Shown in pieces: positions 2,778 through 5,625 of a stretch of DNA of 18,521 nt (positions are counted from its first letter, which is position 1; each line of letters begins with the position of its first letter). Location: positions 1 through 18,521 of the forward strand of contig JAJTBM010000013.1 of NCBI GenBank assembly GCA_021286885.1, read 5' to 3'. Both the position numbers and the translations under genes were made by a program. A model generated the notes under the pieces. The model did not search any database, was not told the origin of the DNA, and worked only from the letters and a program-made list of their open reading frames with translations. Origin of the DNA: Rhodocyclales bacterium. GTDB taxonomy: Bacteria > Pseudomonadota > Gammaproteobacteria > Burkholderiales > Rhodocyclaceae.

Positions 2778-4132
2778 TCCGCTACGCCCTGCGCCCCGAC
2801 GCGTCTGGCCAATGCCAACTGAACCTGCCCGAACTGGCCGGCCAGGATGTGGAAATCCTGGTGCGCCCGCGCCAGCCCGACAGCAGCGAAACCCCCTGGC
2901 GCGCCGGGCGGGACAGCGTGCCGCCCTCGGGCAAGGTGATCGGCGAACCCGAAAAGAACGCCATGATCGAAGCCGCCCTGGATGGCTGGCTCACCACCGG
3001 GCGCTTCAACGATGCATTTGAGGAGCGCCTCGCCCGCTTTGTCGGGGTGCCCTACGCCCTCACCGTGAATTCCGGCTCCTCGGCCAATCTGGTGGCCTTC
3101 ACCACCCTGACCTCACCCCAGCTGGGCGAACGGGCGATCCGCCCGGGGGATGAAGTCATCACCGTGGCCGCCGGCTTCCCGACCACCGTGTATCCCATCA
3201 TCCAGAACGGGGCGATCCCAGTGTTCGTGGATGCCCGGCTGCCCGACTACAACATCGACGTGGCCATGCTGGAAGCGGCCCTCAGCCCCCGCACCAAGGC
3301 CATCATGGTGGCCCACACCCTGGGCAACCCCATTGATCTGGACACGATTTGCGCCTTTGCCCAGGCCCACAAGCTGTGGTTGATCGAAGACTGCTGCGAT
3401 GCCCTCGGCTCCCGCTGGAAGGGCCGCCGGGTGGGGAGCTTCGGGGATCTGGCCACCCTGTCCTTCTACCCCGCCCACCACATCACCATGGGCGAAGGGG
3501 GCGCGGTGCTGACCGCCAACCCGGAGCTCAAGCGGATTGCCGAATCCTTCCGCGACTGGGGGCGGGACTGCTGGTGCAAGACCGGCTGCGACAACACCTG
3601 CGGCAAGCGCTTTGGCTGGCAGCAAGGCCGCCTGCCCGCCGGCTACGACCACAAATACACCTACAGCCATATGGGCTACAACCTCAAGATCACCGACATG
3701 CAGGCCGCCTGCGGGCTGGCCCAGCTGGATCGGCTGGAAGACTTCATCGCCGCCCGCAAGCGCAACTTCAACCACCTGAAGGCAGCCCTGGCCGATTGCA
3801 CCGACTTTCTGATCCTGCCCGAAGCCACCCCGGGCAGCGATCCGGCGTGGTTCGGCTTCCCCATCACCCTCAAGCCTGAAGCCGGGGTGAACCGGGTGGA
3901 TCTGGTCCAGTACCTGGATCAGCACAAGATCGGCACCCGGCTGCTGTTTGCCGGCAACCTGATCCGCCAGCCGGCCATGGCCGGGCGGGATTACCGGGTG
4001 ATCGGTACCCTGCCGGTGGCCGACCAGATCATGCGCGACACCTTCTGGATCGGCGTGTGGCCCGGCCTCAGCCGGGAGCAGCTGGACTACGCCGTGCATC
4101 ACATCAAGACCTTCCTGGGAGTCGAATTATGA
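2765..4132 (+). CDS. rfbH: CDP-4-dehydro-6-deoxyglucose 3-dehydrase (E1), with extra N-terminal segment
   Basis: This PMP-dependent iron-sulfur enzyme removes the C3 hydroxyl of CDP-4-keto-6-deoxyglucose, with electrons from an E3-type reductase that is not in this window. The 455-residue protein has the aminotransferase fold, but the usual Schiff-base Lys is His238 (SFYPAHHITMGEGG), the E1 hallmark. Cys211, Cys269, Cys271 and Cys279 have the spacing C-X57-C-X1-C-X7-C expected for the E1 [2Fe-2S] ligands. Residues from about 50 (VPPSGKVIGE) onwards follow the family closely. Residues 1-40 do not look like the usual N-terminus and resemble a small beta-rich module (CQLNLPELAGQDVEILVRP). ATG at 2765 is preferred because GGAGA lies just upstream and the start nests in the rfbG end; an in-frame GTG inside the segment is possible. 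It overlaps the next gene by 4 bp. Confidence 0.95.
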   Translation: MPGLIRYALRPDASGQCQLNLPELAGQDVEILVRPRQPDSSETPWRAGRDSVPPSGKVIGEPEKNAMIEAALDGWLTTGRFNDAFEERLARFVGVPYALTVNSGSSANLVAFTTLTSPQLGERAIRPGDEVITVAAGFPTTVYPIIQNGAIPVFVDARLPDYNIDVAMLEAALSPRTKAIMVAHTLGNPIDLDTICAFAQAHKLWLIEDCCDALGSRWKGRRVGSFGDLATLSFYPAHHITMGEGGAVLTANPELKRIAESFRDWGRDCWCKTGCDNTCGKRFGWQQGRLPAGYDHKYTYSHMGYNLKITDMQAACGLAQLDRLEDFIAARKRNFNHLKAALADCTDFLILPEATPGSDPAWFGFPITLKPEAGVNRVDLVQYLDQHKIGTRLLFAGNLIRQPAMAGRDYRVIGTLPVADQIMRDTFWIGVWPGLSREQLDYAVHHIKTFLGVEL

Positions 4133-5625
4133 GCACCAAGCCCCTCATGGTGTTTGAAATGGCCAACAACCACATGGGCGACCTGGGCCACGGCCTGGCC
4201 ACCATCCGCGCCCTGCGCGAGGCCTGCACCGGCTTCGAGGCCGATTTCGACTTCGCCTTCAAGCTCCAGTACCGGGATCTGGACACCTTCATCCACGCCT
4301 CGGTGCGCGGGCGCGAAGACGTGAAGTACGTGAAGCGCTTTGAAGAAACCCGACTGAGCGACGCCTCCTTCCAGGAGCTGGTGCGGGAGATGCGCGACAA
4401 CGGCTTTCAAACCGTGTGCACACCCTTCGACGAGCCCTCGGTGGACAAGATCGAAGCCCACGCCATCGAGAGCATCAAGGTCGCCAGCTGCTCCTTCACC
4501 GATTGGCCCCTGCTGGAGCGCATCGCCCAGAGCGACAAGCCGGTGATCGCCTCCACCGCCGGCGCGACGCTGGAAGAGATCGACAACGTGGTGAGCTTCT
4601 TCCTGCACCGCCACAAGCAGCTCACCCTGATGCACTGCGTGGCCGAATACCCGACCCCGGACGCCAGCCTGCAGGTGAATCAGATCGCCCTGCTCCAGGC
4701 CCGCTACCCGGACTGCCGGATCGGCTACTCCACCCACGAATCCCCCGACAACACCCTGGCGGTGGCCCTGGCCGTGGCCAAGGGCGCCCGGGTGTTCGAG
4801 AAGCATGTGGTGCTACCCACCGCCCGCTATCCGGCCAATGCCTACTCGGCCAACCCGGCCCAGATCCGGGCCTGGCTGGAAAGTGCGCGCCGCGCCCTGG
4901 CCATCTGCGGCAGCGCCGACCGCTACCAGCCCTCCCGCGCCGAAGAAGCCAGCCTGCACAGCCTGCGCCGGGGGGTGTTTGCCACCCGCCCCATTCCTGC
5001 CGGCACCCAGCTGACCCGGGACATGATCGAGTTTGCCTTCCCGCCGGTGGAAGGCCAGCTCACCGCCAACGCGTGGTCCAAGTACAGCCAGTTCCGCGCC
5101 ACCCAGGACATTCCTGCCGGCACCCCGGTGCTGCACATGGATCTGGCCGAAAGCCACCTGCGCAGCCAGGTGATGGGCATCGTGCTGGATGTGAAGAAGC
5201 TGCTCAAGGCCGCCCATGTGGTGATTCCGGGCAAGTCGGAGCTGGAGATTTCCCACCACTTCGGGCTGGAGCGCTTTGACGACTTCGGGCTCACCATGCT
5301 CACCGTGGTGAACCGGGAATACTGCAAGAAGCTGCTGGTGCTGCTGCCGGGCCAGACCCACCCCGAGCAATACCACCTCAAGAAGGAAGAAACCTTCGTG
5401 GTGGTGCACGGCGAACTCACCCTGTGGCTCGATGGCGAAGAACGCCTGGCCCACGCCGGCGACGTGATCACCGTGAACCGGGGCGTGCGCCACCGCTTTT
5501 ACACCAGCGTGGGCGCGGTGTTCGAGGAGATTTCCTCCACCCACGAGCCCAACGACTCCTACTACACCGACCCGGCCATTGCGCGGAACACCCAGCGCAA
5601 GACCTGGCTCACCTACTGGATGTAA
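4129..5625 (+). CDS. NeuB-family PEP-condensing synthase fused to SAF and cupin domains
   Basis: The 498-residue protein has three parts. Residues 1 to about 265 are a NeuB-type synthase of the sialic/legionaminic/pseudaminic acid synthase family, which condenses PEP with an amino sugar. Conserved pieces are EMANNHMGD near residue 10, FKLQ, CTPFDEPS, MHCVAEYPTP, GYSTHES (His203) and FEKH (His226); the two His match the family's metal ligands. Residues about 275-345 are a SAF (antifreeze-like) domain (RRGVFATRPIPAGTQL, ATQDIPAGTPV). Residues about 355-498 are a cupin with motif His411-X4-His416-X3-Glu420 and a second-motif His455 (GVRHRF), so its metal site looks intact; it is reminiscent of D-lyxose-isomerase-like cupins. 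Ordinary NeuB proteins are about 340-350 residues and lack the cupin. ATG overlaps the rfbH stop (ATGA). No NeuA or NeuC homologue is nearby, so the substrate is unknown. Confidence 0.9.
   Translation: MSTKPLMVFEMANNHMGDLGHGLATIRALREACTGFEADFDFAFKLQYRDLDTFIHASVRGREDVKYVKRFEETRLSDASFQELVREMRDNGFQTVCTPFDEPSVDKIEAHAIESIKVASCSFTDWPLLERIAQSDKPVIASTAGATLEEIDNVVSFFLHRHKQLTLMHCVAEYPTPDASLQVNQIALLQARYPDCRIGYSTHESPDNTLAVALAVAKGARVFEKHVVLPTARYPANAYSANPAQIRAWLESARRALAICGSADRYQPSRAEEASLHSLRRGVFATRPIPAGTQLTRDMIEFAFPPVEGQLTANAWSKYSQFRATQDIPAGTPVLHMDLAESHLRSQVMGIVLDVKKLLKAAHVVIPGKSELEISHHFGLERFDDFGLTMLTVVNREYCKKLLVLLPGQTHPEQYHLKKEETFVVVHGELTLWLDGEERLAHAGDVITVNRGVRHRFYTSVGAVFEEISSTHEPNDSYYTDPAIARNTQRKTWLTYWM

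Follow-up and report, generated by a model that had tools for sequence, protein, structure and literature searches.

What becomes of the product of a NeuB-type synthase that is encoded in the middle of a cytidine diphosphate (CDP)-3,6-dideoxyhexose operon? The question is raised by contig JAJTBM010000013.1 of the Rhodocyclales bacterium assembly GCA_021286885.1, whose positions 1 to 18,521, the whole stretch analyzed, are called the window here. A NeuB-SAF-cupin fusion is the fourth gene in a run encoding RfbF, RfbG, RfbH, the fusion, a thiamine diphosphate (ThDP) enzyme, a C-methyltransferase, a Nudix protein, a family 2 glycosyltransferase (GT2), a short-chain dehydrogenase/reductase (SDR) and a radical S-adenosylmethionine (SAM)/SPASM protein (Table 1). 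An earlier reading of the DNA (the original prediction) had described the fusion as one frame of 498 residues, and both our translation (498 amino acids and a stop) and Pfam agree with it. We consider it probable (about 0.7) that this protein makes a 2-keto-3-deoxy-ulosonic acid and that the ThDP enzyme then grafts the decarboxylated remainder of the acid onto another sugar as a long branch, giving a sugar of the gastriose class.

In the proposed route, the C-terminal cupin would interconvert a ketose and an aldose in the manner of D-lyxose isomerase, and the NeuB barrel would join the aldose, or its phosphate, with phosphoenolpyruvate (PEP) to form the 2-keto-3-deoxy-ulosonic acid. A linked HAD phosphatase, where present, would strip the phosphate. 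The acid would stay without activation by cytidine monophosphate (CMP). The ThDP enzyme would decarboxylate it and attach the hydroxyacyl chain left over to CDP-4-keto-3,6-dideoxyglucose, the acceptor that RfbF, RfbG and RfbH would supply, at its C4 ketone. The resulting CDP-sugar would be branched at C4 by a long polyol chain, and the SDR may afterwards reduce the new ketone. We infer every reaction step; the domain architecture, the gene pairing, the folds, the conserved catalytic residues and the absence of a CMP-sugar synthetase were computed. The enzyme folds and the ligation are known, and the donor-making step and the fate of NeuB-type acids are new in that they were not found in the literature searched.

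The fusion is paired with a YerE-like ThDP enzyme

The ThDP enzyme of the window, whose open reading frame (ORF) starts 18 nucleotides past the stop of the fusion, shows the features of YerE-like carboligases, namely three TPP domains, relation to YerE and JanthE, and linkage to RfbF, RfbG and RfbH. Its best PDB match was JanthE (8rph; 339 bits), compared with 251 bits for PpYerE (5ahk). In place of the ThDP-binding motif xGDGx it carries ESDGS. This variant was found in 40 of the 75 ThDP enzymes of NeuB-cupin loci (the window counted) and in 13 of 14 close homologues from an independent search, in contrast to none of 24 more distant ThDP relatives. Of the latter, four have CDG, as JanthE does.

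To see how regularly the two genes occur together, we took the 175 stretches with a relative of the fusion that a scan of genome contigs had returned and kept 80 loci, which align with the query over almost its full length; the window's own locus (L001) was excluded. A ThDP gene is present in 76 of these 80 loci: it lies at most 120 bp downstream of the fusion in 50, is separated from it by a single gene in 23 and lies upstream in 3 (L067, L071 and L072). RfbF, RfbG and RfbH are all present in 57. These counts supply the list of conserved neighbors that the original prediction had called for. The same pairing was seen at the level of genomes. Among 398 genomes of the phylum, the fusion (at least 53% identity) occurs in ten and the ThDP enzyme (at least 54%) in the identical ten, four of which belong to one genus (g83), and among 200 genomes of the order both proteins were found at 59% identity or more in the same five. 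Starting from the ThDP enzyme alone (at least 52% identity), all 14 further genomes had a NeuB-cupin gene, which stands next to the ThDP gene in 11 and at another place in 3. As a control, we used the 30 best-scoring cupin-less NeuB loci from the 86 positive genomes among 200, and none of them has a ThDP gene within 1.5 kb. Furthermore, the trees of the fusion and the ThDP enzyme are correlated over 75 loci (Spearman 0.785 versus 0.13 for the best of 1,000 permutations), which lends weak support, as shared ancestry yields an equal signal.

The locus resembles the gastriose locus of Mycobacterium gastri

According to the available part of a 2025 review (PMC12247030), YerE-like enzymes join alpha-keto acids to CDP-4-keto-3,6-dideoxyglucose. 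In that account YerE itself uses pyruvate and passes on its two-carbon unit, ErwE requires hydroxylated longer donors, and MygE of M. gastri, which is involved in gastriose, accepts alpha-keto acids of three to eight carbons, with no use of ketones seen in vitro. The term "NeuB" is absent from the main text of this review. The M. gastri locus (L050) encodes RfbF, RfbG and RfbH, a NeuB-SAF-cupin protein, a ThDP enzyme, a HAD_2 phosphatase, two methyltransferases and an SDR. It thus shares with the window the fusion (57% identical), the ThDP enzyme (54 to 55%), the three Rfb proteins and the SDR, and the window contains the core of a gastriose-type locus (RfbFGH, NeuB-SAF-cupin and ThDP enzyme). 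Of the two loci, that of M. gastri additionally has the HAD_2 and the two methyltransferase genes, and the window has a C-methyltransferase, a Nudix and a radical SAM gene instead; neither a HAD gene nor methyltransferases of the M. gastri types were found in the window. Since the ThDP gene of L050 is the sole close match in the M. gastri genome, we take it to be probably the one for MygE. The original prediction had been unable to match the pathway to a described one; the gastriose locus now provides such a match.

Gastriose, as reportedly described by Gilleron in 1993, is 3,6-dideoxy-4-C-(1,3-dimethoxy-4,5,6,7-tetrahydroxyheptyl)-xylo-hexose. If this structure holds, its branch would correspond to a PEP-plus-pentose ulosonate minus CO2, with the CH2 at C2' derived from C3 of PEP, and the two methyltransferases of M. 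gastri would fit the two methoxy groups. Because of this seven-carbon branch, and because the residues of the catalytic site are nearly constant across the family, our guess for the aldose is a pentose of the xylulose/lyxose type. A hexose acceptor, leading to a nine-carbon acid of the Kdn type and to an eight-carbon branch as in the 14-carbon aurantose, a branched tetradecose, is possible if doubtful: NeuB enzymes usually yield nine-carbon acids, and the titles of 7nzq and 7nzp indicate D-mannose and D-fructose as further ligands of D-lyxose isomerases. However, the catalytic-site residues barely differ between M. gastri and the others, the gastriose branch reportedly has seven carbons, and no entry named Spirochaeta aurantia was seen among the best 120 matches of one protein search, most of which are nameless.

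Other known systems share parts of this logic. The yersiniose A pathway likewise has genes for CDP-4-keto-3,6-dideoxyglucose, and its ThDP carboligase belongs to the same subclass. However, as far as described in the available part of PMC12247030, it has no synthase partner, and the window enzyme is nearer to JanthE than to PpYerE. Erwiniose formation by ErwE resembles the proposed route in its ThDP enzyme with hydroxylated longer alpha-keto acid donors (PMC12247030, available part) and differs in that the donor is a short 4-hydroxy-2-oxo acid rather than an ulosonic acid. Similarly, the KdsD-KdsA-KdsC-KdsB pathway of 3-deoxy-D-manno-octulosonic acid (Kdo) follows the same order of isomerase, PEP-dependent synthase and HAD phosphatase, whereas here a NeuB-type synthase is fused to a D-lyxose-isomerase-type cupin and ThDP ligation would take the place of the CMP step.

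The synthase barrel departs from N-acetylmannosamine-using NeuB enzymes

A Pfam scan covering positions 4057 to 5622 returned NeuB (149 bits, against a cut-off of 22.1 for PF03102), SAF (34 bits) and Cupin_2 (48 bits), placing the protein in the NeuB superfamily. The more specific profiles scored far below their cut-offs, with 146.3 bits for the N-acetylneuraminate synthase NeuB/NnaB (TIGR03569; cut-off 399.65) and 137.1 bits for the pseudaminic acid synthase PseI (TIGR03586; cut-off 340.25). We therefore rejected an ordinary sialic, legionaminic or pseudaminic acid synthase, also because a CMP-synthetase is lacking.

Residue conservation was counted over 78 aligned relatives, which average 62% column identity. 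The PEP-site lysines K45 and K117 and the two metal histidines named in the original prediction, His203 and His226, are identical in all 78. In contrast, the position of NeuB Arg314, which we take to bind the N-acetyl group of N-acetylmannosamine (ManNAc), is hydrophobic (I, F or M) in 78/78, and that of Glu134 is a serine in 76/78, so that the fusion lacks both residues that mark ManNAc-type NeuB enzymes. PDB entries 4ipi and 4ipj are titled R314A and R314K. In a cupin-less protein of locus L131 and the LegI-like protein of locus L132, Arg314 is kept as R and Glu134 as E or D. Compared with NeuB, LegI and PseI, the fusion thus has the same fold, SAF domain, metal histidines and PEP-site Lys/Ser and differs in the added cupin, in the altered Glu134 and Arg314 positions and in having a ThDP enzyme as a partner instead of a CMP-synthetase.

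An AlphaFold model of the fusion built from the 78 sequences (predicted local distance difference test [pLDDT] 94.7, predicted template modeling score 0.78) matched NeuB and PseI in its N-terminal part and D-lyxose isomerases in its C-terminal domain. The N-terminal part also resembles 3g8r (66% identity, 0.9 A over 337 columns), a solved, uncharacterised SpsE-like protein of Chromobacterium violaceum whose deposited chain of 350 residues ends before the cupin; no functional paper on it was found in the literature searched.

The cupin resembles D-lyxose isomerases

In the model, the C-terminal domain superposes on the D-lyxose isomerase 2y0o over 167 columns (1.8 A, 28% identity; Foldseek), and it also matches 7nzq and 7nzp, complexes of D-lyxose isomerases with D-mannose and D-fructose. 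The sequence profile of this family (PF07385) gave a marginal 21.1 bits against a cut-off of 20.8, with no single stretch passing. From the spacing of the cupin motif and the alignment with D-lyxose isomerases, we assigned the ligand positions to 414, 416, 421 and 455. Of the metal set proposed earlier, His416 and His455 were thus retained, and His411 and Glu420 should be replaced by position 414 and Glu421; His411 is kept in 74/78 relatives, yet it is out of register for the metal set. His416, Lys419, Glu421, His455 and Glu467 are constant in 78/78. Position 414, which corresponds to the first of the three His that together with one Glu hold the metal in D-lyxose isomerases, is Gln in 64/78 and His in 14/78. 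The zinc set of type I phosphomannose isomerases is Gln-His-Glu-His. A dioxygenase was rejected, since the matches to quercetinases span only the cupin core (about 45 residues) and the isomerase match spans the whole domain.

The predicted fold thus supports a ketose/aldose isomerase-like domain that would work on the substrate side. Could the cupin instead serve in binding, in regulation or as an epimerase, with the NeuB part accepting a ready-made free aldose that the Nudix protein may release? We regard this as unlikely. Cupins do serve many functions, the Gln at position 414 departs from D-lyxose isomerases, a Nudix gene occurs in 37 of the 80 loci, and cupin-less NeuB relatives are direct neighbors of ThDP genes in two loci (L166 and L175) and stand two genes apart from one in L174. 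Nevertheless, the match extends over the entire isomerase fold, and this and the five invariant residues listed above weigh against such a reading. The original prediction of a 3-deoxy-ulosonate synthase with an isomerising cupin is supported in part: the 2y0o fold and the hydrophobic Arg314 position agree with it, and the probable ThDP-dependent fate of the product was not foreseen.

Phosphatase genes linked to the pair

A gene for a HAD-fold protein lies between the fusion and the ThDP gene in 21 loci; 14 of the 21 proteins match NT5C at E values up to 1 (best 1.2e-6), and a model (pLDDT 94.5) resembles deoxyribonucleotidases. The same gene follows the NeuB-cupin gene in L067. In five mycobacterial loci, a HAD_2-type gene stands directly after the ThDP gene (by Pfam in the L050 copy and by similarity in the rest), and L074 has another gene that is HAD by eye. 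HAD_2 matches located 3 to 5 kb upstream in L002, L008 to L011 and L031, and one each in L019 and L036, were excluded as linked phosphatases. These linked genes suggest a phosphorylated ulosonate in the loci that carry them. In addition, short stretches that are 48 to 55% identical to the HAD-like end of a cytidylyltransferase of locus L130 were seen in L034 (5058-5447), L047 (13609-13950) and L063 (13457-13774), all ThDP-linked loci, and possibly represent a fourth kind of linked phosphatase.

The ulosonic acid probably stays without CMP activation

NeuB-type synthases would normally be expected near a CMP-sugar synthetase (NeuA/LegF/PseF), and the original prediction had pointed out that none is here. 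Indeed, none was found in the window, and its genome bin (3.4 Mb, 611 contigs, 80.5% complete), in which the fusion gene is the sole NeuB-family match, has none beyond kdsB as far as assembled. The one CTP_transf_3 match over the cut-off in this bin was read as kdsB because the ORFs on its two sides read as lpxK and adk. Two window-type genomes of 99% completeness (G356 and G392) have kdsB only, plus a weak IspD-like match in G356, and no dedicated CMP-synthetase was found in genomes G000, G356, G392, G272 and G314. Such an absence is expected, since the neighboring ThDP enzyme likely consumes the synthase product, as in the M. gastri locus.

It seems quite improbable that the locus serves two separate sugars instead, the ThDP enzyme using pyruvate as in yersiniose chemistry and the ulosonic acid being CMP-activated by KdsB or by an enzyme encoded elsewhere. 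Such an arrangement would suit the use of pyruvate by YerE itself (PMC12247030, available part), the presence of KdsB-type genes and a distant cupin-fused subfamily near a cytidylyltransferase (see below). Among the 24 more distant ThDP loci, moreover, 11 lack NeuB and have two or all three of RfbF/G/H; a cupin-less NeuB-family gene is present in 6 and RfbH alone in 2, and the other 5 have no gene of either kind, some stretches ending at contig edges. However, the finding that close homologues of the two proteins occur only together (10/10 genomes among 398), the direct adjacency in 50/80 loci, the correlated trees and the five genomes without a dedicated CMP-synthetase all argue against two sugars and for the use of the ulosonic acid by the ThDP enzyme.

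Several observations nevertheless weigh against this use. Gene pairing shows partnership, not chemistry. Four of the 80 loci have no ThDP gene, L052 and L059 with short flanks and L061 and L070 with flanks that are not short, and RfbF/G/H are absent altogether in 10 loci and incomplete in 13, partly from contig ends. The window locus has no linked HAD phosphatase gene, so that a phosphatase would have to act in trans or the substrate be unphosphorylated there. Eight genomes with the pair (G303, G326, G002, G010, G113, G121, G185 and G731) have CTP_transf_3 matches beyond kdsB. Finally, a distant cupin-fused subfamily of 44 to 46% identity (genomes G304, G049 and G431; loci L130 7609-10212, minus strand; L194 about 900-3741, minus strand; L193 7851-10021, plus strand) occurs without a ThDP gene, and a cytidylyltransferase lies near the subfamily gene in two of the three loci (L130 and L194), so the fusion alone does not fix the ThDP route. 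By eye, the C-terminal part of the L130 cytidylyltransferase copy and the ORF next to the subfamily gene in L193 are HAD-phosphatase-like.

Spread of the fusion

The loci come from beta-, alpha- and gammaproteobacteria, Magnetococcales, mycobacteria, Nitrospirae, Acidobacteria, Elusimicrobia, Omnitrophota, Spirochaetota, Bacteroidales, Chloroflexi, cyanobacteria and an archaeal metagenome-assembled genome (MAG). In three protein searches (7,044, 6,789 and 7,670 matches), NeuB and Cupin_2 were both present in all of the best 120 matches. We thus rejected an assembly artefact or a recent fusion: the two parts, which the original prediction had asked to be sought unlinked, are fused in all listed close relatives, and the 80 loci align nearly end to end. 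Databases name the fusion N-acetylneuraminate synthase or "SpsE/cupin", and no paper characterising a NeuB-cupin fusion was found in the literature searched. Among the matches listed, a close homologue occurs in one M. marinum cluster of three sequences (P0122). A possible tie of the fusion to caryophyllose of M. marinum was set aside.

Other NeuB types occur with ThDP relatives

At least three kinds of NeuB are paired with ThDP relatives: the cupin-fused one, a cupin-less sister and a legionaminic type. Cupin-less NeuB-SAF genes share loci with distant ThDP relatives in L131 (227-9987), L166 (7487-10434), L174 (1014-5060) and L175 (659-8491), and L131 and L175 also carry RfbF/G/H. The legionaminic type is found in L132 (genome G314), where an operon on the minus strand (8225-16574) encodes NeuB, a UDP-sugar dehydrogenase, a LegB-like protein, LegC, an Epimerase_2 (NeuC-like) protein, a PglD-like protein and, as the final gene, a YerE-like ThDP enzyme. 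This NeuB scores 472 bits, above the TIGR03569 cut-off, and LegC scores 407 bits against a cut-off of 420. The genome is 100% complete and has one strong CTP_transf_3 match, read as kdsB from its lpxK-like neighbor, plus a weak one at the cut-off.

We are inclined, by a little, to think that decarboxylative transfer by YerE-like ThDP enzymes onto nucleoside diphosphate (NDP)-4-keto sugars is a further, widespread fate of NeuB-family ulosonic acids, involving at least three NeuB kinds. If so, even an acid of the legionaminic type may become a carbon branch on a different sugar, and the presence of neuB alone would be no evidence of sialic acids, which calls for caution in surveys that predict sialic-acid-like sugars from NeuB homologues, such as that on Candidatus Accumulibacter (PMC8053191, available part). 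The proposed route would also explain the widespread NeuB-cupin fusion and offer a source of the long hydroxy-keto-acid donor for gastriose-type sugars, which the available part of PMC12247030 does not give. In addition, ThDP ligases with the unusual SDG motif would form a new group, for which polyhydroxylated donors are predicted. The literature searched contained no link between a NeuB-type synthase and a YerE-type enzyme, although primary ThDP papers may hold an earlier proposal.

Gene order and further genes in the window

The ATG of the fusion overlaps the RfbH stop by 4 nucleotides. The profile match of RfbF begins at residue 10, placing the real start probably near 886, and that of RfbH begins at residue 106, so the real start lies inside the listed ORF.

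Table 1. Features of the window, with coordinates, strand and basis of assignment
Feature	Coordinates	Strand	Basis or remark
RfbF, glucose-1-phosphate cytidylyltransferase	859..1656	+	TIGR02623, 461 bits vs cut-off 300
RfbG, CDP-glucose 4,6-dehydratase	1641..2777	+	TIGR02622, 450 bits vs cut-off 278
RfbH, CDP-6-deoxy-4-keto-glucose 3-dehydratase	2570..4132 (listed ORF)	+	NF011936, 721 bits vs cut-off 423
NeuB-SAF-cupin fusion, 498 aa	4129..5625	+	Proposed ketose/aldose isomerase and PEP-dependent 2-keto-3-deoxy-ulosonate synthase
NeuB barrel, residues 1-263	4129..4917	+	Pfam NeuB; alignment with 4ipi and 3g8r; structure model
Catalytic metal His203 and His226	4735-4737 and 4804-4806	+	Alignment with 4ipi and 3g8r; structure model
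SAF domain, residues 281-335	4969..5133	+	Pfam SAF, 34 bits
D-lyxose-isomerase-like cupin, residues ~345-498	5161..5622	+	Foldseek 2y0o, 7nzo, 7nzq, 3mpb; alignment
YerE/JanthE-like ThDP enzyme, proposed decarboxylative C-C ligase	5644..7368	+	Pfam TPP N, M, C
SAM methyltransferase with C-methyltransferase C-terminal domain	7475..8635	+	Pfam Methyltransf_23 and Methyltransf_14; counterpart in 46/80 loci
Nudix protein, related to GDP-mannose mannosyl hydrolase	8632..9189	+	Pfam NUDIX, 23 bits; counterpart in 37/80 loci
Glycosyltransferase family 2	9186..10259	+	Pfam GT2, 70 bits
Extended SDR (NAD epimerase/dehydratase)	10275..11315	+	Pfam Epimerase, 100 bits; counterpart in 52/80 loci
Radical SAM/SPASM protein	11442..12554	+	Pfam Radical_SAM, 82 bits, and SPASM, 24 bits; counterpart in 30/80 loci

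The SDR is a candidate ketoreductase for the new branch. Speculatively, the Nudix protein, whose relative in L065 scores 29 to 30 bits to 2i8t/1rya, might free an aldose from an NDP-sugar. Because L070 has the C-methyltransferase, Nudix and radical SAM genes together with a NeuB-cupin gene and without a ThDP gene, their products may take part in making or altering the substrate of the synthase. This locus, from a Lachnospiraceae MAG, additionally contains genes for a BKACE enzyme and for two more radical SAM proteins (8297-9163 and 15341-18317). Downstream of the run, the window contains an ORF of 268 amino acids (12624-13430) that has no Pfam match, yet has relatives in 15/80 NeuB-cupin loci, and a protein of 1,222 amino acids (13473-17141) with a GT2 domain in its middle.

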